DNA of 64,000 nt, from assembly GCA_016235445.1 (NCBI GenBank), contig JACRLB010000003.1:124001-188000 (forward strand), in the 5' to 3' direction. The stretch comes from Chloroflexota bacterium (GTDB lineage Bacteria; Chloroflexota; Anaerolineae; Anaerolineales; Villigracilaceae). The first letter of the stretch is position 1; each line of letters starts with the position of its first letter. Shown here in pieces: positions 15,678 to 55,304 of this stretch. The notes under the pieces were generated by a model, which searched no databases, was not told where the DNA came from, and saw nothing but the letters and a program-made list of their open reading frames with translations. The position numbers were made by a program, and so were the translations under genes.

Positions 15678-17471
15678 ATGGCAAATGTTCATCAATTTGA
15701 TGTAGTCGTCATCGGCGCGGGGGGTGCGGGGTTAATGGCAGGGCTGTATGCCTCGCGCAACGCAAAGACCGCTGTCATCAGCAAACTGTATCCCACGCGC
15801 TCGCACACGGGCGCGGCGCAGGGCGGCATCTCTGCCGCGCTGGGCAACTACGAAGAAGACAAACCCGAATGGCACATGTACGACACCGTCAAAGGTTCGG
15901 ATTACCTCGGCGACCAGGATGCCATCGAATTCATGACGAATGAAGCGATTGACGCCGTTCTCGAACTCGAACACATGGGGCTTCCCTTCGACCGCACGCC
16001 CGAAGGACGCATCTCCCAGCGGCCGTTTGGCGGGCACACCAACAACGAAACTGGCAAACCCGTCAGAAGAGCCGCGCACGCCGCAGACCGCACAGGGCAC
16101 ATGATTTTGCAAACGCTCTATCAGCAGTGCTTGAAAAACAAGGTCAACTTCTTTGATGAATACCAGGCGCTTGATCTCATCATGGTCAACGGCAGGGCGG
16201 CGGGTGTGGTGGCTGTGGAACTTGCCACGGGCGAACTTCACACCATCCATGCCAAGTCTGTTGTCTTCGCCACAGGCGGGCACGGACGTATCTTCGATGT
16301 CACCTCCAATGCCTACGCCTACACGGGCGATGGCGCGGCAATTCTTTTGCGGCACGGCATCCCATTGGAAGATATGGAATTTTTCCAATTTCACCCCACG
16401 GGCATTTACAAACTCGGCATTCTCATCACCGAAGGCGTGCGCGGCGAAGGCGGCGTGCTCATCAACGGCAATGGCGAACGCTTCATGCCGAAGTACGCGC
16501 CGGGCGTAAAAGATTTGGCTTCGCGTGACGTCGTCTCCCGCGCAATTTATACCGAAATCAAAGAAGGCCGCGGCGTGGATGGAAAGAATTACGTCTATCT
16601 GGATATTCGCCCTGAGACGGTGAACAGATTCGCCGCGCAGGATGGACGCACAAACCCGGACGGTTCACCCTACAATCTGACGGCTGATGCTGTTCTAAAG
16701 AAGATTCCCGACATTGTAGATTTTTGTCGGGTCTATCTGGGAGTTGATCCTGTCACCCAACTGATGCCCATCCAACCGACGGCGCATTATACGATGGGCG
16801 GCATTCCCACCAACAAATACGGTGAAGTGATTGTGGACGATAAAGACACAACCGTCCCTGGGTTGTTTGCGGCGGGTGAGTGCGCGTGTGTGTCTGTGCA
16901 TGGCGCGAACCGTTTGGGGACAAACTCATTGCTCGATATTGTTGTCTTTGGCAAACATGCAGGCCTCAAAGCGGCAGAGTACGCGAAGTCTGCTGGGTTT
17001 GAGACTCTGCCCGGGGACGCAGAATCAGGCGCAAAGTCCACGCTGGAGGCGCTGCGCAAGGGATCAGGCACGGAAAACGCATTCGACATTTCCAATGAAA
17101 TGAAGCAGGTCATGTTTGCGGATGTCGGTATTTATCGAAATGAAAAAGATATGCAATCCGCTTTGGACAAGGTGCGCGAGTTGAAGGAACGCTTCAAGAA
17201 TGTGGGCGTGATCGATACGGGCAAAATTTTCAACACCGAGTTGTTGAACGCCTGGGAACTCGGCAACCTGCTCGACATTGCAGAAGTGGTTGCCGTGAGC
17301 GCGATCAACCGCAAGGAATCACGCGGCGGACATTCGCGCGAAGATTACCCCGACCGCGACGATGCAAACTGGCTGAAGCATACGTTGATCGCCAGGAAGA
17401 ACGGAAAACTTGAGATCAATTACAAACCCGTTGTGATTACGAAACACCAACCCAAGGCGAGAGTCTATTAA
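15678..17471 (+). CDS. sdhA: Succinate dehydrogenase flavoprotein subunit
   Basis: A 597-residue FAD-containing catalytic subunit that oxidises succinate to fumarate. The N-terminal dinucleotide motif is [19 protein letters not shown], and the FAD-linking region [16 protein letters not shown] carries the histidine for covalent FAD. The active-site block [13 protein letters not shown] and the C-terminal [16 protein letters not shown] are complete. The C-terminus has [19 protein letters not shown], a conserved sdhA/frdA signature. The start is fixed by CAGGAG upstream. The stop codon lies inside the left arm of an inverted repeat that separates it from sdhB. Confidence 0.96.
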
Positions 17472-33371: not shown

Positions 33372-35042
33372 ATGTCAATGGATATCAAGTGGATCATTTT
33401 TGCAACGCTATTGATTGCCAATGCGGTCACGGCATTCACCATCGCATGGATGCTTTCGCGCAGGCCGCCCAAATCCGGCATCCACTCGATGACGCTAATG
33501 CTTTTGGGGCTGGGCATCTGGTCATTCAGTTATGCAATGATCGCGCTTTCTCCAACGCTTGAGGTAAAACACCTCTGGCTGAAGCTGGAAAATATCGGCA
33601 TCCTATCCGTGCCTGTATTGTGGTTTTTCTTTACCCTGAAATACACGCGGCTGGATAAATGGCTGACCGGCAAACCAGTGATGCTGTTATTCGGAATCAT
33701 TCCAGCCGTCTCGTTGATATTTCTCTTTTCAGACCGCTGGTTTCATCTATATTACACATCCACGCATGTTGCCATGGAGTCCGGGGGACCGTTGATCATC
33801 AGCCGCGGACCCATGTATTGGGTTGCGCTTACCCATGCCTACCTGCTGAATCTGATTGGCGTGAGCGTGCTGGTCTGGCGTTTTGTTAAATCACGGCTGG
33901 TGTACCGCAAGCAAATGCTCTATCTGATCGGGGCGGTTGTCGTCCCGTTCGCCATTAATATCATCTACCAATTAATGCCGGGCCTCCTGCCCTTCTTTTC
34001 CGTTCCCGTGGATTTGACCCCCCTTTTTTTCAACGTGACAGCCATTCTGCTTGTGGCGAGCATCTTCGGCCTGCGCCTGTTTGACCTCGTGCCGATTGCC
34101 CGCGATACGGTTTTGGAGCATATCCCGGAGATGGTCTTTGTGGTGGATGTGCATGACCGCGTGATGGACGCAAATTCGATGGCACAAAAATGGCTGGGCA
34201 AATCCATCGAGGAAATGTCCGGGCAGGACCCTGTGGAGGTTTTCCGAAGCTGGCCCCAATTGCTTAATCGTTTCTTTTTTACGGAATACTCCCGCGAAGA
34301 GATTGAAATTCCGGGCGTCCCGCCGCACACGCTTGAAGTTGTGGTCACTCCCATTTACAACCGCTTCAATACCCTCGAGGGACGTGTGATCGTGGCGCGG
34401 GATATCACCGAACGAAAGGCGCTCGAAAATAAATTAAAGGAAGTCAATGTCTCGTTACAGAATCAATTGAACGAGAACGAATCGTTACGCGCCAAACTTC
34501 AGGAACAAGCCATCCGCGACCCGTTGACCGGCGCCTTCAACCGCCGCTTTTTTTCCGAAGCATTGGACAGGGAATCCGCAAGGGCAATCCGTGAAAACTC
34601 CTCCTTCTCCATCATCATCCTCGACGTGGATCACTTCAAACAATTCAACGACACCTACGGTCACAAGTGCGGTGACATTGTTCTGCAAGCCCTGGCAAAT
34701 TTCCTCGACGAAAATACGCGCCAGGGCGATATTGTCTGCCGCTATGGCGGCGAAGAGTTCGTCCTCCTGATGACCGATGCCGCGTCTGAATCTGCGTTTA
34801 AACGCGCGGAACTTTTTAGAAAACAATTCGAAGAAACAACCATCGAATACGAAGGCAGGCGGCTTAAGTGTACTTTTTCGGCTGGCATCGCATCCTGCCC
34901 GGAACATGCCGCTTCCGGTGAAACCCTGTTAATCCTTGCAGATCAGGCGCTTTATCGATCCAAGGCCGAAGGGCGTGACCGTGCGACTGTCTATTCCCCC
35001 GAAAATTACTACCAAACTTCAGGAGACAGCTATGCAGATTGA
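33372..35042 (+). CDS. Diguanylate cyclase with 7TM sensor and PAS domain
   Basis: A 556-residue membrane sensor. Seven or eight N-terminal helices (about residues 5-230) form a histidine-kinase-type 7TM region. A PAS domain follows (VLEHIPEMVFVVDVHDRVMD), then a short coiled coil (ALENKLKEVNVSLQNQLNEN). A GGDEF domain completes it with DPLTGAFNRRFF, DVDHFKQFNDTYGH and the active CRYGGEEFVLL. It should make c-di-GMP. The signature is GGEEF, which is active in many enzymes, and no inhibitory RxxD site is obvious. The gene starts 13 bases after hutI and its end overlaps the arginase start by 11 bases. Confidence 0.92.
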   Translation: MSMDIKWIIFATLLIANAVTAFTIAWMLSRRPPKSGIHSMTLMLLGLGIWSFSYAMIALSPTLEVKHLWLKLENIGILSVPVLWFFFTLKYTRLDKWLTGKPVMLLFGIIPAVSLIFLFSDRWFHLYYTSTHVAMESGGPLIISRGPMYWVALTHAYLLNLIGVSVLVWRFVKSRLVYRKQMLYLIGAVVVPFAINIIYQLMPGLLPFFSVPVDLTPLFFNVTAILLVASIFGLRLFDLVPIARDTVLEHIPEMVFVVDVHDRVMDANSMAQKWLGKSIEEMSGQDPVEVFRSWPQLLNRFFFTEYSREEIEIPGVPPHTLEVVVTPIYNRFNTLEGRVIVARDITERKALENKLKEVNVSLQNQLNENESLRAKLQEQAIRDPLTGAFNRRFFSEALDRESARAIRENSSFSIIILDVDHFKQFNDTYGHKCGDIVLQALANFLDENTRQGDIVCRYGGEEFVLLMTDAASESAFKRAELFRKQFEETTIEYEGRRLKCTFSAGIASCPEHAASGETLLILADQALYRSKAEGRDRATVYSPENYYQTSGDSYAD

Positions 35043-44295: not shown

Positions 44296-44583
44296 AAAAA
44301 CCTCCCGTCCACAAATGGGACGAGAGGGAATTCTCGCGGTACCACCCAAGTTCATCGTTACCGATGCTCTTTGTGCCGACAATCATCGGCTTCCCGAATA
44401 ACGCTGGGATTGCGTCCCGCACTACTGGTGGCGCAAGATGTCATCTTGCGTTACGTTCACACGAGAGGCTCGAGAGGGAACTTCAACGGGTTTCGGTCGA
44501 GTGCAATCTCAACAACTGCCTTGCACATCTCTGGCGGCTTCTGCCAGTCTACTTTCCTCTGTCACTGCCTTTTATTTTGTTGC
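44296..44583 (-). promoter_or_regulatory. T-box riboswitch of pheST
   Basis: On the minus strand Stem I opens with GAGGAAAGTAGACTGG and CAGAGAT. A TTC specifier lies at 44478-44480 inside GAAGTTCCC and fits phenylalanine. The T-box GGGTGGTACCGCG is at 44335-44347 and the terminator at 44296-44329 has CTCTCGTCCC and GGACGGGAG arms with TTTTT. A repeat-family palindrome (44432-44450) lies between Stem I and the antiterminator. Confidence 0.92.
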
Positions 44584-49721: not shown

Positions 49722-50414
49722 ATGAGTGAAAAACGCATTCTGGTGGTGGAGGACGAGCCAAGCCTGGCCGAGGTGGTGAGTCTTTATTTAAAGCGCGCGG
49801 GCTTTCAGGTGCAGGTTGCCGCGGATGGAAAACAGGCCATGAATATCCTGGAAAAGCAGATACCGGACTTTGTGATTCTGGATTTGATGCTCCCTGAAGT
49901 GGACGGGCTTGCGCTGACCCGCTGGCTGAGAGACCGTTCGGATGTGCCGATCATCATGGTGACTGCGCGGCGCGAGGAGATTGACCGCATTGCGGGACTC
50001 GAAATGGGCGCGGATGATTACGTGGTGAAACCGTTCAGCCCGCAGGAGTTGGTGAGCCGTGTTCGGGCGGTGTTAAGGCGCATTGGACGGGAACAGCCCG
50101 GGGCGGAGTCGGAGCGGGAGTTGTCTTTTGATTCCATCACCATCAACTCACTCACCCGCATTGTGATGGTGCGAGAGTCGCAGATCGAATTGACTGCAAA
50201 GGAGTTCGATATGTTGTATCTTTTGGCGCGTCACCCCAAACAGGTGTTTACGCGCGCTCAATTGCTCGAGCGGGTGTGGGGCGGCGCGGAGTATATTGAC
50301 CCTGGAACCGTCACGGTGCATGTGCGCCGCCTGCGCGAGAAAATCGAAAGCGACCCGTCTTCGCCGAAACATTTGCTGACGGTGTGGGGCGTTGGATATA
50401 AATTCGAGCCATGA
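49722..50414 (+). CDS. OmpR-family response regulator
   Basis: A 230-residue two-domain regulator. The receiver domain has VVEDEP, the phospho-acceptor Asp in DFVILDLMLPEVDG, TARREE and VVKPFSPQELV. The C-terminal winged helix has LTAKEFDMLYLLARHPKQVFTRAQLLERVWG and VHVRRLREKIE. It should bind DNA when phosphorylated by the kinase encoded next, with which it overlaps by four bases (ATGA). Its targets are unknown; the redox genes downstream are candidates by position. Confidence 0.94.
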   Translation: MSEKRILVVEDEPSLAEVVSLYLKRAGFQVQVAADGKQAMNILEKQIPDFVILDLMLPEVDGLALTRWLRDRSDVPIIMVTARREEIDRIAGLEMGADDYVVKPFSPQELVSRVRAVLRRIGREQPGAESERELSFDSITINSLTRIVMVRESQIELTAKEFDMLYLLARHPKQVFTRAQLLERVWGGAEYIDPGTVTVHVRRLREKIESDPSSPKHLLTVWGVGYKFEP

Positions 50415-51637
50415 AAACATCCCCTGTCTTTCGTTTCATCGCAGGTATTCTGCTGATCTTTCTGATCTCGCTTGCCGTCTTCAATATGATGATGGCGCCG
50501 CCTTTATATGAACTGGGATTGATGGCGTTGTTTCTGGGCATCACTGCATTTGTTTCGGCGCTGGCTGGTTACATCGCGTATCGTTTTGGATGGCTGTCGC
50601 TTTCGCCGACCTTGCGCTGGTCTTTGCTGGGCGGGTACGCGCTATCCAGCCTGCTTACTTTTTTCAACATTTGGTTTTCAGCGCAGTTGATGTTTGCAAG
50701 CCAGCATGACCTTCTGCTTGCGATTGTTCTGCTTGTCTTCGCCAGCGGCATGGCCATGGCGCTGGGATATTTTCTCTCGAGCGCCATTACAGACCGCGTC
50801 CATGTATTGAAAGACGCGGCGGAAAAACTTGCCGAAGGCGATTTGAAAACGCGAGTCCCTGTGTATGGGCGGGATGAAATTGCCATGCTGGCGCATACCT
50901 TCAACCAGATGGCCGAACAACTCGAAGCCGTGGACAGCAAACAACGCGAGCTTGAGCAGTTGCGCGCAGATTTGATCGCCTGGGTTGGGCATGATCTTCA
51001 AACGCCGCTGGCATCCATCCGCGCGATTCTGGAAGCTATTGAAGATGATGTCGTAGAAGACCCGCAAACGATCAAACGCTATTTGAATACCGCCCAGCGC
51101 GATGTGCGCGCTCTTTCCGCGCTGATAGATGATCTCTTTCAAATGGCACAGTTGAACGCTGGCGGCATTCCCCTCGACCGCGCAAAATCGTCCCTCGCAG
51201 ACCTGATCTCCGATACCCTTGAATCGTTTTCAGAGTTGGCCGCCCGTCAGCAGGTGAAACTTGAAGGCAGTGTGGCCGCGGATGTGGACCCCGTCCGCAT
51301 GGATACCCAGCGCATCGGGCGCGTGCTCAACAACCTGATTGGCAACGCGCTTCGGCACACACCCAGTCAGGGTGAAGTAAAAGTCCACGCGCGGCGGACA
51401 GGCGCGGGCGTGGAAGTGAGCGTGTCTGATACGGGCGAGGGAATCCGCAGAGAAGACCTTCCGCATATCTTTGAAAGTTTTTATCGCGGTGAAAAATCCC
51501 GCAGTCGCAACACAGGCGGGGCGGGCCTTGGGCTTGCCATTTCACGCGGAATTGTGCAGGCGCACGGCGGCGAGCTAAACGTCGAAAGCGCACCGCCGCC
51601 ACAGAGGGGAAGTCGCTTCACGTTTAATTTACCCTAA
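50411..51637 (+). CDS. Membrane sensor histidine kinase
   Basis: A 408-residue kinase with four N-terminal membrane helices and little extracytoplasmic sequence, so it probably senses a signal in the membrane. A HAMP domain (VHVLKDAAEKLAEGDLKTRVP) follows, then the HisKA helix with the phosphorylated His in WVGHDLQTPL. The HATPase domain carries NNLIGNALRHTP, DTGEGIRREDLPHIFESFYRG and GAGLGLAISRGIV. It is coupled to the response regulator. The next gene encodes the predicted selenoprotein, 72 bases on. Confidence 0.93.
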   Translation: MKTSPVFRFIAGILLIFLISLAVFNMMMAPPLYELGLMALFLGITAFVSALAGYIAYRFGWLSLSPTLRWSLLGGYALSSLLTFFNIWFSAQLMFASQHDLLLAIVLLVFASGMAMALGYFLSSAITDRVHVLKDAAEKLAEGDLKTRVPVYGRDEIAMLAHTFNQMAEQLEAVDSKQRELEQLRADLIAWVGHDLQTPLASIRAILEAIEDDVVEDPQTIKRYLNTAQRDVRALSALIDDLFQMAQLNAGGIPLDRAKSSLADLISDTLESFSELAARQQVKLEGSVAADVDPVRMDTQRIGRVLNNLIGNALRHTPSQGEVKVHARRTGAGVEVSVSDTGEGIRREDLPHIFESFYRGEKSRSRNTGGAGLGLAISRGIVQAHGGELNVESAPPPQRGSRFTFNLP

Positions 51638-51709: not shown

Positions 51710-52258
51710 ATGAAACGATACTTACTTGGATTACTGTTTTTGCTGACCGCTTGTACTGCCGCATCCAAATCTTCCGAACCCGTCATGCCGACCATCCACG
51801 CTTCCTACCCTGACCTCGGGCCTGCTCCCGAACTGACGAATGATTCCTGGCTGAATGTGGACTCGCCCCTGCGCCTCGCAGATCTGCGCGGCAAAGTCGT
51901 CGCAATTGACATGTGGACCTTTGGCTGAATTAATTGCCAGCATGTGATTCCTTCGTTGAAGGAATGGGACGAAAAATACCGCGAACAGGGACTCGTCATC
52001 ATCGGCAACCACTACCCCGAGTTTTCCTTTGAAGCAGACCTCACCAACCTGCAAGCCGCTGTTGCGGAATATGGAATTGAATACCCCGTAACACAGGATA
52101 ACGAAGGCAAAACCTGGCAGGCCTACAATAACCGATACTGGCCCACGCTTTATCTGATCGACAAAAATGGACACATCCGCTACGTTCACATTGGCGAAGG
52201 AAATTACAACGAAACCGAAGCCGCCATACAAGCTTTGCTGGCAGAACCCCAACCTTAA
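51710..52258 (+). CDS. Predicted selenocysteine-containing thioredoxin-like lipoprotein
   Basis: A 182-residue lipoprotein with a TlpA/thioredoxin-like fold, read through an in-frame TGA at 51926-51928. The signal ends in LLFLLTAC, with the lipid-bearing Cys at residue 15. The redox site is MWTFG-U-INC: Sec at 73 and Cys at 76, where relatives read WTYTCINC. Both halves are in the same frame and the second half is intact, with LKEWDEKYREQGLVIIG, the cis-Pro in YWPTLYLID, and HIGEGNYNETE at the end. A SECIS-like hairpin follows the TGA. Most likely it is a thiol oxidoreductase outside the membrane serving MsrP or other partners. The alternative, a true nonsense mutation, is less likely because the stop lies exactly on the catalytic cysteine. 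Confidence 0.85.
51926..51965 (+). promoter_or_regulatory. Bacterial SECIS-like hairpin after the in-frame TGA
   Basis: ATTCCTTC (51947-51954) and GAAGGAAT (51958-51965) form a perfect eight-base stem with loop GTT. The loop begins 26 bases after the TGA and its first base is G. Known bacterial SECIS elements have the loop roughly 16-37 bases from the UGA and a G in the first loop positions. The hairpin is inside the reading frame, as SelB-dependent elements must be. Confidence 0.75.
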
Positions 52259-52282: not shown

Positions 52283-53236
52283 ATGAGCCACCCATTTAAA
52301 TCCATTCCCATTCGTTCTTCCGAGATCACCCCAAAGGATGCCTATCTCTCGCGGCGCGATTTTATGAAAGCCGCAGGTCTCACCGCAGGCGCGGCATTGT
52401 TAACCGCCTGCGGGCCGTCAGTGGCGAATGCTTCCGAAGGAACCGAATCAGCCCCAACGTCCAGCGCGACCGATGAACTTGGAAACATCGTCAACACCTT
52501 TGAAGAGATCACCAGCTATAACAACTATTACGAATTCAGCACCAACAAGGAAGCCGTGGCTCCGCTTGCAAAAGATTTCACCACCGCCCCGTGGACAGTG
52601 GAAGTTGGCGGCCTCGTCCACAAGCCGAAAACCTTTGGCGTGGAAGACCTGCTGAGCCTGTTCCCGCAAGAGGAACGCATCTACCGCCTGCGCTGTGTCG
52701 AAGCCTGGAGCATGGTCATCCCGTGGAGTGGTTTTCCGCTGGCAAGCCTGCTCAAAATGGTCGAGCCAACCTCCAATGCAAAATACGTGCGCTTTGAAAC
52801 CGTCTACCGCCCCGAAGAAATGAAAGGGCAGGGCAGTCCCTTCTATCCCTGGCCGTATCAGGAAGGCCTGCGCATTGACGAAGCCATGAACGACCTCGCA
52901 ATCCTTGCAACTGGCATGTATGGCGAAACCATGCTGGCGCAAAACGGCGCGCCCATCCGCCTGGTGGTGCCGTGGAAATATGGATTCAAGTCCATCAAAT
53001 CCATCGTCAAGATCGAATTGGTTGCCGAAAGACCGAACACTTTATGGAACAGCGTCTCAACCAGTGAATATGGTTTTTATTCCAATGTCAATCCAAATGT
53101 GGATCATCCGCGCTGGTCGCAGGCCTCCGAGCGCCGCATTGGCGAACTCAGCCGCAGACCCACTCTCCTGTTCAACGGCTACGGCGAACAGGTTGCCAGC
53201 CTCTACGAAGGCATGGACCTCAGCCTGCAATTTTAA
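52283..53236 (+). CDS. msrP: Methionine sulfoxide reductase, molybdopterin catalytic subunit
   Basis: A 317-residue MsrP/YedY protein that repairs oxidised methionine in envelope proteins. A Tat signal is present ([18 protein letters not shown], arginines at 24 and 25), so the cofactor-loaded enzyme is exported folded. The molybdenum ligand is the Cys in [15 protein letters not shown] (residue 138). [22 protein letters not shown] and [12 protein letters not shown]-like [15 protein letters not shown] are family blocks. It starts 24 bases after the selenoprotein stop and AAAGAGG precedes it. MsrQ follows after 95 bases. Confidence 0.95.
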
Positions 53237-53248
53237 TAACCGCTATTC

Positions 53249-53271
53249 CGTACCGCAACATTCATGTTGCG
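53249..53271. repeat. GTACCGCAACAT palindrome
   Basis: CGTACCGCAACATTCATGTTGCG is a half-length copy of the repeat seen at 36719-36787 and 44213-44288. It lies between msrP and msrQ. Confidence 0.65.
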
Positions 53272-53331: not shown

Positions 53332-54009
53332 ATGAAAAAATTTTCCCGCTACACCCCCCTTCAAATCGCCATCCACCTGTACGCATGGTCAGCCCTCGCA
53401 TGGATCATCTTTGAGCTGGCAACTGGCACATTCTCCATCAACCCCATTCAGGAGTTGGAACAGCGCACGGGCCGCCACGCCATCACCCTGCTTGTGCTTT
53501 CGCTGATCTGCACCCCCGTTAACACCATTTTCAAATGGACAGAGCCGCTCAAACGCCGCCGCGCGCTGGGCTTGTATGCCTTCCTCTACGCCGCCATCCA
53601 CGTCATCATATTTGTAGACCTGGATTACGGCCTCGCGTGGAGTCTCATCGGCGAAACCGTTTTGCAAAAGCCATATATCGTGGTCGGCATGACCACCTTT
53701 CTTCTGTTGATTCCCCTTGCGTTCACCTCCTTCGACATCTGGAAAAAACGCCTCGGCAAAAACTGGAAACGCCTGCACAAACTTATTTACATCATCGCCC
53801 CGCTTGCCGTCCTGCATTTTGCCTGGAGCAAAAAAGGCGATCTCTTCACCCTCTCCGGCGACATCGTCCGCCCATTGATCTATGGACTGGTCCTCGCGAT
53901 TTTCCTGACCTTCCGCATCCCCGCGATTCGAAAAGCCCTCGCCTCTTTTTCGCCCCGACGGCTGATTCAGTCTCCCAAGCAGGAGTCTCAGCCCGCGCTC
54001 CGCGAATAA
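53332..54009 (+). CDS. msrQ: MsrQ, heme-binding membrane subunit of the MsrPQ system
   Basis: A 225-residue membrane protein with six helices. Family landmarks are GRHAITLLVLSLICTPV, RRALGLYAFLYAAIHVIIFVDLDYG, NWKRLHKLIYIIAPLAVLHF and the basic end. The histidines in HVIIF, RLHKL and VLHFAW are the heme-b ligands. It passes electrons from the respiratory chain to MsrP. The typical alternation of msrP and msrQ on one strand is kept here. Confidence 0.93.
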   Translation: MKKFSRYTPLQIAIHLYAWSALAWIIFELATGTFSINPIQELEQRTGRHAITLLVLSLICTPVNTIFKWTEPLKRRRALGLYAFLYAAIHVIIFVDLDYGLAWSLIGETVLQKPYIVVGMTTFLLLIPLAFTSFDIWKKRLGKNWKRLHKLIYIIAPLAVLHFAWSKKGDLFTLSGDIVRPLIYGLVLAIFLTFRIPAIRKALASFSPRRLIQSPKQESQPALRE

Positions 54010-54292: not shown

Positions 54293-55087
54293 ATGCCTAT
54301 AAAATCTAAAAAATCCACCCCAATAATTTTTGAAGAAGAAGAAATAGAGGAAACCGCCCCAGACGCAGAAGAGTTCATCATCTTCAAGCGCAGTCACTTT
54401 TACTCTGTGCTTGTTGTGCTTGCCTTTGGCGTTGGCATTCTCGTTGGCTATGTCCTCTGGGGGCGCGGCACAACTGCCACAGCGGCAGTCCCTGCCCAGG
54501 CGGCGCAACAGCCCTCAGGTCAGGTGGCTGAGGCGCCAGCCGCACAGCCGCAATTTACCCGCTACGACATCCCCACCGAAGGATATCCAAGCCTCGGCCC
54601 GGACGATGCGAAGATCGTCATCGTAGAGTTCAGCGACTTCCAATGTCCATACTGCCGCCGCTTTCATGATGAGACCTATCAGGCTTTGCTGGATGCGTAC
54701 CCCAACCAGATTCGTTTTGTTTATCGCAACCTGCCGCTCACATCCATTCACCCCGCCGCCATGCCCTCTGCAATCGCCTCGCTCTGCGCCAACGACCAGA
54801 ACGCCTATTGGGAGTATCATGAAAAGCTCTTTAGCAGTGAAGCATTGGATGAAGCGACCTTTATTCAATATGCCGCCGATCTCAGTTTGGATGTTGAAGA
54901 ATTCACCGCCTGCCTTGTCAGCGGAAAACACGATGATTTCATTCAAACAGACATGGACTTTGCCATCAACCTCGGCGTGCAGTCTACGCCCACGTTCTTC
55001 GTCAATGGCCTGGCGCTTGTCGGCGCACAGCCTCTCTCCAGCTTCCAGCAGTTGATAGACAAGGAACTGGCTGGCGAAATTCCATAG
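54293..55087 (+). CDS. DsbA-family thiol-disulfide oxidoreductase, membrane-anchored
   Basis: A 264-residue protein with a short acidic cytoplasmic N-terminus, one membrane helix (residues about 37-57), an Ala-Pro linker and a DsbA-like domain. The active site CPYC is at 118-121 in VEFSDFQCPYCRRFHDE, and the cis-Pro loop is QSTPTFFVNGLAL. Two more cysteines (LCANDQ and TACLVSG) may form a structural disulfide. It should catalyse disulfide exchange outside the membrane. A TATAAT box (54279-54284) is eight bases before the ATG, which fits a leaderless transcript. It closes the redox gene group. Confidence 0.9.
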   Translation: MPIKSKKSTPIIFEEEEIEETAPDAEEFIIFKRSHFYSVLVVLAFGVGILVGYVLWGRGTTATAAVPAQAAQQPSGQVAEAPAAQPQFTRYDIPTEGYPSLGPDDAKIVIVEFSDFQCPYCRRFHDETYQALLDAYPNQIRFVYRNLPLTSIHPAAMPSAIASLCANDQNAYWEYHEKLFSSEALDEATFIQYAADLSLDVEEFTACLVSGKHDDFIQTDMDFAINLGVQSTPTFFVNGLALVGAQPLSSFQQLIDKELAGEIP

Positions 55088-55304
55088 AACTCTGGAGTCC
55101 ATCAGCAAGCTGATGGACTTTATGTTCGGCTTGGGCGGGTTTCATTACCCGCCCTTTTGTTTTTTTAATTCTCTACCGTACACGCAAACCCTAAAGGTCT
55201 CCTTTTCCCTCGCAGATTCCTGATTCACCGAAAAGACCTTTAGAGAGTGTTTGAGATGTGCCAAATTCAACCCCGCAGGGGTGTCATGGCTCGTAAAATC
55301 AATA
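55088..55304. repeat. Gene-free region with GACTCCAGAG repeat and terminator
   Basis: CTCTGGAGTC (55090-55099) is followed by the palindrome CCATCAGCAAGCTGATGG (55099-55116), a copy of the family at 1368 and 47557. A terminator follows at 55134-55168, with GGGCGGGT and ACCCGCCC arms and a long T run, for the DsbA-like gene. Beyond it a weak inverted repeat around AAAGGTCTCC and GACCTTT is seen, and no gene. Confidence 0.72.

Follow-up and report, generated by a model that had tools for sequence, protein, structure and literature searches.

Selenoproteins of the thioredoxin fold in which selenocysteine (Sec) is the first residue of a UxxC motif are a described group: PMC13188914 tabulates Prx-like thiol:disulfide oxidoreductases (PF00578), Redoxin proteins (PF08534, with HEU0032618.1 as a listed example) and thiol-disulfide isomerase-like proteins (cd02966), and gives a bSECIS element downstream of the Sec codon as the rule for them. 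The Rcas_1661 family of thioredoxin-like (seleno)lipoproteins (NCBIfam NF041057) is DsbG-like in the same source. For the phylum of the organism studied here, a 2006 survey listed three selenoproteins (PMC1794560). Methionine-sulfoxide repair offers further points of comparison. MsrP belongs to a non-thiol system, being fed by MsrQ from the respiratory chain without thiols (PMC8945050), and in Escherichia coli HprSR lies beside hiuH-msrPQ, induced by reactive chlorine species including HOCl (PMC9302797). The pneumococcal Etrx1 and Etrx2 are surface thioredoxin-family lipoproteins serving the methionine-sulfoxide reductase SpMsrAB2 (PMC3914529).

The locus described here lies in a stretch of 64,000 nucleotides from a Chloroflexota genome (hereafter the window) and resembles each of these systems in part. 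With the UxxC selenoproteins tabulated in PMC13188914, its thioredoxin-like protein shares the Pfam folds and the position of Sec as first residue of UxxC. It is probably of the thioredoxin-like (seleno)lipoprotein kind, as is the Rcas_1661 family, and has no match to the NF041057 model at E ≤ 0.001. The closest solved structures are the C-terminal thioredoxin domain of Mycobacterium tuberculosis DipZ (2hyx/5cyy), NHLRC2 and SOQ1. DipZ has Cys in place of Sec and its thioredoxin domain is fused to a CcdA-type membrane part, whereas the focal protein is a stand-alone protein of 182 aa without a Pfam match to the CcdA-type membrane domain. Like Etrx1 and Etrx2 of Streptococcus pneumoniae, it is a probable thioredoxin-family lipoprotein with a likely tie to methionine-sulfoxide repair; the Etrx proteins use Cys and serve MsrAB, whereas the focal gene adjoins the molybdenum enzyme MsrP with MsrQ. 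As at the E. coli locus, a two-component system stands beside msrPQ, the kinase being compared by domains and position only; the third gene codes for HiuH in E. coli and for a thioredoxin in the window cluster.

Among the open-access papers searched, none was found to describe this family or a selenoprotein tied to MsrPQ. The main text of PMC13188914 has no occurrence of lipoprotein, chloroflex, msrp, anaerolinea or msrq, and this thioredoxin family is absent from the passages retrieved from the deep-Sep, ISME 2016 and GOS papers. The original prediction of a selenoprotein at this locus, made from the DNA letters, had known of no named system with a Sec thioredoxin lipoprotein beside MsrP/MsrQ. 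This has to be amended for the protein itself, as both UxxC redoxin selenoproteins and a family of thioredoxin-like (seleno)lipoproteins have been described (the listed examples being compared here by kind only), but stands for the MsrPQ link, for which the open-access papers searched gave no report.

A thioredoxin-fold gene with an in-frame TGA

The focal gene has the following features:

51710–52258, plus strand: predicted Sec-containing thioredoxin-fold (TlpA/DipZ-type) gene for a probable lipoprotein of 182 aa, site WTFG-U-INC
51926–51928, plus strand: predicted Sec codon TGA, residue 73, first residue of the UxxC redox motif
51743–51754, plus strand: lipobox L12-T13-A14-C15, recognized by eye, with putative lipidation at Cys15

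With the TGA read as Sec, the gene forms a single frame of 182 aa that ends in TAA and is interrupted by one TGA only, in agreement with the original prediction of one gene split only by this TGA, and the flanking residues, MWTFG-U-INC, make up a thioredoxin-type active site. It had also been predicted that gene callers would break the gene in two. A table-11 ORF list (≥80 aa) indeed provides an example of a gene cut at its active site, except that only the downstream half (51944–52258, 104 aa) is listed. The protein is probably a membrane-anchored lipoprotein; the lipobox Cys column holds Cys in 39 of 47 aligned sequences. AhpC-TSA (E = 9.1e-14), Redoxin (E = 7.7e-12) and Thioredoxin_8 all exceed their Pfam cut-offs, and the protein has the combination of an AhpC-TSA/Redoxin fold with UxxC that characterizes the UxxC redoxin and Prx-like selenoproteins.

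An AlphaFold2 model built with 47 sequences (pLDDT 90.0, pTM 0.80) predicts a thioredoxin fold that has, as in TlpA/ResA/DipZ domains, a Pro loop and an active site where helix 1 begins; residue 73 lies directly before helix 74–93 and three residues before Cys76. The best Foldseek match to this model is DipZ of M. tuberculosis (E = 6.8e-20, 45–46% identity), with NHLRC2, SOQ1, SPOA0173 and ResA as further matches and Etrx2 further down. The sequence profile agrees with the fold search (DipZ E = 5.9e-54, Etrx2 also among the matches), and the ResA model NF002854 is not reached (64.4 bits against a curated cut-off of 170). Residues W144-P145, at the expected site of the cis-Pro loop, G162-E163-G164 and Y166 are invariant in the 47 aligned sequences. 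In six pairs picked among Sec forms, with dS near saturation in the pair with L032, we obtained dN/dS values of 0.05–0.15 downstream of the TGA and 0.09–0.28 upstream of it. As judged from these ratios, the gene is under purifying selection on both sides of the TGA, including the downstream half for which this had been claimed.

Codon 73 among homologues

The homologue set comprises 110 loci: 80 kept from a scan of genome contigs, and 30 from a scan of 100 genomes of the window's family, which gave 29 close orthologues (E ≤ 7.4e-69) and one distant paralogue. Two loci were left out of the codon count, L094, whose sequence is cut off ahead of the column, and the distant paralogue L127, which has CxxC; the 108 orthologues are made up of 79 from records titled Chloroflexi, Anaerolineae and similar and 29 from the window-family genomes. 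These relatives, too, most likely place the window in the Chloroflexota. Codon 73 is TGA in 64 of them and TGC or TGT in 44, with nothing else, and residue 76 is Cys in all 109 loci that reach that position. The original prediction had placed the TGA on the first Cys of a TlpA/DipZ-type redox site and looked to the homologues for Cys or TGA in this column, which is what the alignment holds.

The two homologue sources overlap; once duplicates are merged, 88 different proteins remain, 50 with Sec and 38 with Cys, and the distinct 105-nt stretches number 87 (49 with Sec and 38 with Cys). A maximum-likelihood tree built from all 88 proteins, in which the bootstrap is not fully settled, requires at least 14 Sec/Cys changes, at least six of them forced by the starred branches; the rows nearest to the window gene are the Sec forms L018, L019 and L021. 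To judge from gene order, Sec is optional and not necessary, because Cys forms sit at the same place in the same cluster. The known selenoproteins thus gain a subfamily rich in natural Sec/Cys pairs, one of its Cys genes even bearing the SECIS hairpin (see below). If the role proposed below holds, the reasons for keeping or dropping Sec become testable between close relatives.

A bSECIS hairpin downstream of the TGA

One further feature lies within the gene:

51947–51965, plus strand: predicted bSECIS hairpin 26 nt after the TGA, with an 8-bp stem ATTCCTTC/GAAGGAAT and the apical loop GTT (51955–51957)

The published bSECIS rule calls for a loop of 3–9 nt with G in the first two places, located 16–37 nt from the TGA, and a folding energy of at most −7.5 kcal/mol (PMC13188914); as coded here, it allows up to two stem mismatches. 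The window gene passes with loop GTT, 26 nt and −8.6 kcal/mol. Among the distinct stretches, the rule is passed by 44 of 49 Sec forms versus 3 of 38 Cys forms. Synonymous shuffles pass it in 737 of 4900 cases when all Sec stretches are pooled, and in 137 of 2000 when made from the window gene. All eight core pairs are formed in 41/49 Sec and 2/38 Cys stretches, and the loop of the lowest-energy hairpin lies 26 nt after the TGA in 44/49 Sec stretches. Taken by itself, the rule is weak: in addition to the focal gene, it is passed by 3 of the 27 readthrough TGA frames of the window, among them those at 15698 and 17319. The 66-nt fold after the TGA is no better than shuffles (z = −0.86), whereas the trimmed hairpin beats them (z = −2.40 for 31 nt and −3.33 for 25 nt).

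Covariation was assessed on 44 distinct aligned Sec stretches against 500 shuffles and six slid versions of the structure. Paired cells amount to 93.0% versus 88.0% in shuffles, cells changed on both sides to 25 versus 7.1, and covariation to 0.183 versus 0.096; for each of the three, 0/500 shuffles reach the observed value, with the caveat that relatedness of the sequences can produce such an excess over shuffles even where there is no structure. All six slid versions are lower, with at most 60.0% paired, 11 two-sided cells and a covariation of 0.118. Two other measures are not above shuffles, namely pairs changed on both sides (3 versus 2.1; 67/500 shuffles reach 3) and further pair types (7 versus 8.1; 500/500 reach 7). 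Note also that L058 and L073, neither of which forms the family hairpin, contribute 2 of the 25 two-sided cells, and that alignment columns 24/38 carry C-G instead of U-A in eight rows, accompanied by a Glu-to-Gly change in the protein.

The five Sec stretches failing the rule are L038 (loop ATT), L040 (just under the energy limit), L043 (broken stem), L058 and L073. The last two, Sec genes without the family hairpin, share another sequence after the TGA (L058:3274–3336 and L073:5232–5294); they may carry a different SECIS form or have recently lost the element. On the Cys side, L045 and L092 pass the rule via another geometry, and L039 keeps the eight pairs with loop CTT. In the Cys gene L035 (L035:5226–5290), sister (100/99) to the Sec form L106, the hairpin is complete and has loop GTT; it is a probable fossil SECIS, left after a recent Sec-to-Cys change.

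Selenocysteine machinery and reading of the TGA

The genome carrying the Sec gene (98.28% complete) contains selA (558 bits, cut-off 267.9), selB (339.5 bits, cut-off 242.25), selD (348.6 bits, cut-off 125) and tRNA-Sec (70.3 bits, cut-off 47), with ARAGORN also calling tRNA-SeC, anticodon tca. The original prediction had named the absence of SelA, SelB and tRNA-Sec as evidence against it; all three are present, along with selD. Because selD itself bears one in-frame TGA (G000:C24:68775-69710), it is likely a selenoprotein too. Among 14 known genomes taken as controls, the cut-offs are exceeded by tRNA-Sec in 5, selB in 2, selA in 1 and selD in 2. The tRNA-Sec match alone is thus weak, and the machinery call is carried by the ARAGORN SeC call and the three proteins. 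Within the family, selA was found in 58 of 60 genomes chosen out of the 100 (29 with the Sec/Cys thioredoxin gene, 31 without), regardless of the thioredoxin gene or of its Sec or Cys form, and both misses are incomplete genomes (G040, 60% complete, Sec form; G061, 78%, Cys form); its presence does not separate Sec from Cys genomes among these 60.

Overall, the TGA/Cys column, the bSECIS hairpin, the Sec machinery and the purifying selection support the selenoprotein reading, and the UGA at 51926–51928 is almost certainly decoded as selenocysteine. That it is instead read as Trp or Cys through an altered genetic code or simple readthrough, with no selenium involved, is extremely improbable, given that the genome holds the Sec machinery, that codon 73 is exchanged with Cys only, and that TGA still serves as an ordinary stop at the end of the response-regulator gene in this cluster. 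A broken gene, or a sequencing error at a TGT/TGC codon, would account for the raw in-frame stop only, and we attach a negligible probability to it: the same codon is TGA in more than half of the orthologues, a column that refutes this explanation for the family, the hairpin is kept mainly in TGA orthologues, and purifying selection extends downstream of the TGA.

Gene neighbourhood

The gene predicted to encode the selenoprotein lies in the following surroundings:

49722–50414, plus strand: response regulator (Response_reg and Trans_reg_C), upstream in relatives too
50411–51637, plus strand: histidine kinase (HAMP, HisKA, HATPase_c), 72 nt upstream of the Sec gene
52283–53236, plus strand: MsrP, molybdopterin methionine-sulfoxide reductase with Tat signal (NF003767, 460.8 bits, cut-off 207)
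53332–54009, plus strand: MsrQ, haem membrane partner of MsrP (NF003831, 177.5 bits, cut-off 130)
54293–55087, plus strand: DsbA-like (Thioredoxin_4) protein with CPYC, possible further cluster member
55133–55154: terminator-like stem after the DsbA-like gene
53254–53271: terminator-like stem between MsrP and MsrQ
53680–53696: another terminator-like stem

As a whole, the terminator scan is not above chance (10 found versus 7.2 expected) and the promoter scan is below it (2 versus 4.3). The DsbA-like protein has a CxxC site and scores 125.2 bits with NF041057, below the cut-off of 190. Sec in this neighbour was considered and rejected, its CxxC showing a TGA in 0/28 loci with a match.

MsrP was counted as directly downstream when within 500 nt on the same strand. 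In the window's family this holds for 29/29 orthologues; MsrQ follows in 27 of the 28 with enough sequence, and the kinase stands just upstream in 20/27. Over all distinct orthologues, MsrP is next in 60/88 (28/88 are without it), MsrQ follows in 58/85, and a kinase like that of the window is directly upstream in 52 of the 85 with enough flank. MsrP or the kinase adjoins the gene in 66/85, neither being found within the set distances in 19/85. The upstream kinase persists in the MsrP-less loci L053, L057, L058, L071, L073, L085 and L092, and MsrP occurs without the kinase in L028, L032 and L034. We also observed MsrQ without MsrP at L056, and another molybdopterin oxidoreductase in the place of MsrP at L085.

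At the genome level, MsrP exceeds its cut-off in 90 of the 100 family genomes. The thioredoxin gene is present in 29, all with MsrP, and 61 of the 71 genomes without it have MsrP, which therefore does without the thioredoxin protein. Among the best 30 MsrP loci, counting those whose upstream flank reaches 1.47 kb or more, the kinase precedes MsrP in 8/11 loci from genomes with the thioredoxin gene and in 0/16 from genomes without, at a threshold (E ≤ 1e-8) that a diverged kinase would miss; one of the 11, L154, is a second MsrP copy without a thioredoxin gene beside it. Just upstream of MsrP in genome G010, what seems to be a decayed relic of the thioredoxin gene was seen (L138:2510-2644; 47 residues, one internal stop). 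The genome carrying the Sec gene also codes for a CcdA-type protein (66.4 bits, cut-off 27.1) on contig C27, the window being on C49.

Proposed role

The gene accompanies an envelope repair system and a sensor, in its Sec and Cys forms alike, and from this position we infer that the protein is probably an extracytoplasmic seleno-thioredoxin acting beside MsrPQ in envelope repair, as its thiol/selenol branch. The pneumococcal Etrx lipoproteins with SpMsrAB2 are a precedent for such a role, and the HprSR and hiuH-msrPQ locus of E. coli is one for the gene arrangement. The SelA/SelB/tRNA-Sec machinery would decode the UGA as selenocysteine, steered by the hairpin, and Sec73 would be the attacking and Cys76 the resolving residue, as thioredoxin chemistry suggests. 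Within the conserved cluster of two-component system, thioredoxin-fold selenoprotein, MsrP and MsrQ, MsrPQ would reduce methionine sulfoxide with respiratory-chain electrons, and the selenoprotein would reduce oxidised cysteines (disulfides, sulfenic acids) or keep a pathway partner reduced. Its own re-reduction, across the membrane, would fall to a CcdA/DsbD-type protein coded elsewhere in the genome. Because MsrP receives its electrons from MsrQ, the Sec protein probably forms a parallel branch rather than acting as the electron donor of MsrP. If this role holds, MsrPQ gains a conserved extra partner in one bacterial group. Tentatively, Anaerolineae-type bacteria might even possess a single regulated, selenium-dependent envelope repair unit composed of the two-component sensor, the seleno-thioredoxin lipoprotein, MsrP, MsrQ and, in some, the DsbA-like protein, in which a selenol and a molybdenum enzyme would deal with Cys and Met oxidation side by side, or in which the selenoprotein would directly serve or protect MsrP.

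Two other roles have to be weighed. The selenoprotein could be an oxidant scavenger, Sec73 reducing peroxide or HOCl directly in a Prx-like manner and shielding the envelope while MsrPQ repairs the remainder. AhpC-TSA and then Redoxin are indeed its best Pfam matches, and Prx-like UxxC selenoproteins are a kind listed in PMC13188914, which also gives PxxxTxxC/U as the peroxiredoxin motif and TxxU as its form in Sec peroxiredoxins. Thr70, three residues before Sec73, yields this TxxU spacing and is Thr in 47/47 aligned sequences, a point in favour of a peroxidase role. However, the Pro of the motif is missing, its column being Leu, Ile or Val in 47/47, the model shows the UxxC site where helix 1 begins, and the solved structures closest to the protein are those of DipZ, NHLRC2, SOQ1, SPOA0173 and ResA; we consider scavenging unlikely. 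The selenoprotein could alternatively serve the neighbouring histidine kinase as an accessory or redox sensor, reporting envelope oxidation through its own oxidation state, upon which the kinase would induce the cluster. This would fit the frequency of the kinase directly upstream, also in the seven MsrP-less loci, and its absence (E ≤ 1e-8) upstream of MsrP in genomes lacking the gene, but it has to contend with the 19 distinct orthologues having neither kinase nor MsrP within the set distance and with the loci L028, L032 and L034 that have MsrP and no kinase. Adjacency, moreover, does not tell a sensor from a target gene. We regard a sensory role as quite improbable, and retain the thiol/selenol branch beside MsrPQ as the preferred reading.

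Other Sec branches and further observations

Besides the window gene, a further homologue search gave 24 matches with one TGA, and the TGA was placed in seven. L189, L190, L191, L193 and L194, from the window's phylum, are proteins of ~500 aa with the same thioredoxin domain, an in-frame TGA within WTFCUINC or WTYCUINC and, by eye, NHL-like repeats after the thioredoxin domain, resembling human NHLRC2; these NHLRC2-like proteins would constitute a second Sec-using branch. L187 and L188, which carry WTYGUINC and begin with a lipobox-like sequence, represent a further Sec branch and have no window-type MsrP, MsrQ or kinase nearby at E < 1e-15. L195 and L197 are Cys homologues apparently fused to a CcdA-type membrane part (by eye), in a DipZ-like arrangement.

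Elsewhere in the window, a second selenoprotein candidate at 35040 was rejected, a GGDEF-like frame (by eye) being followed there by a TGA beyond which the sequence looks non-coding. A T-box leader was detected at 44313–44574 on the minus strand, with 107 bits.
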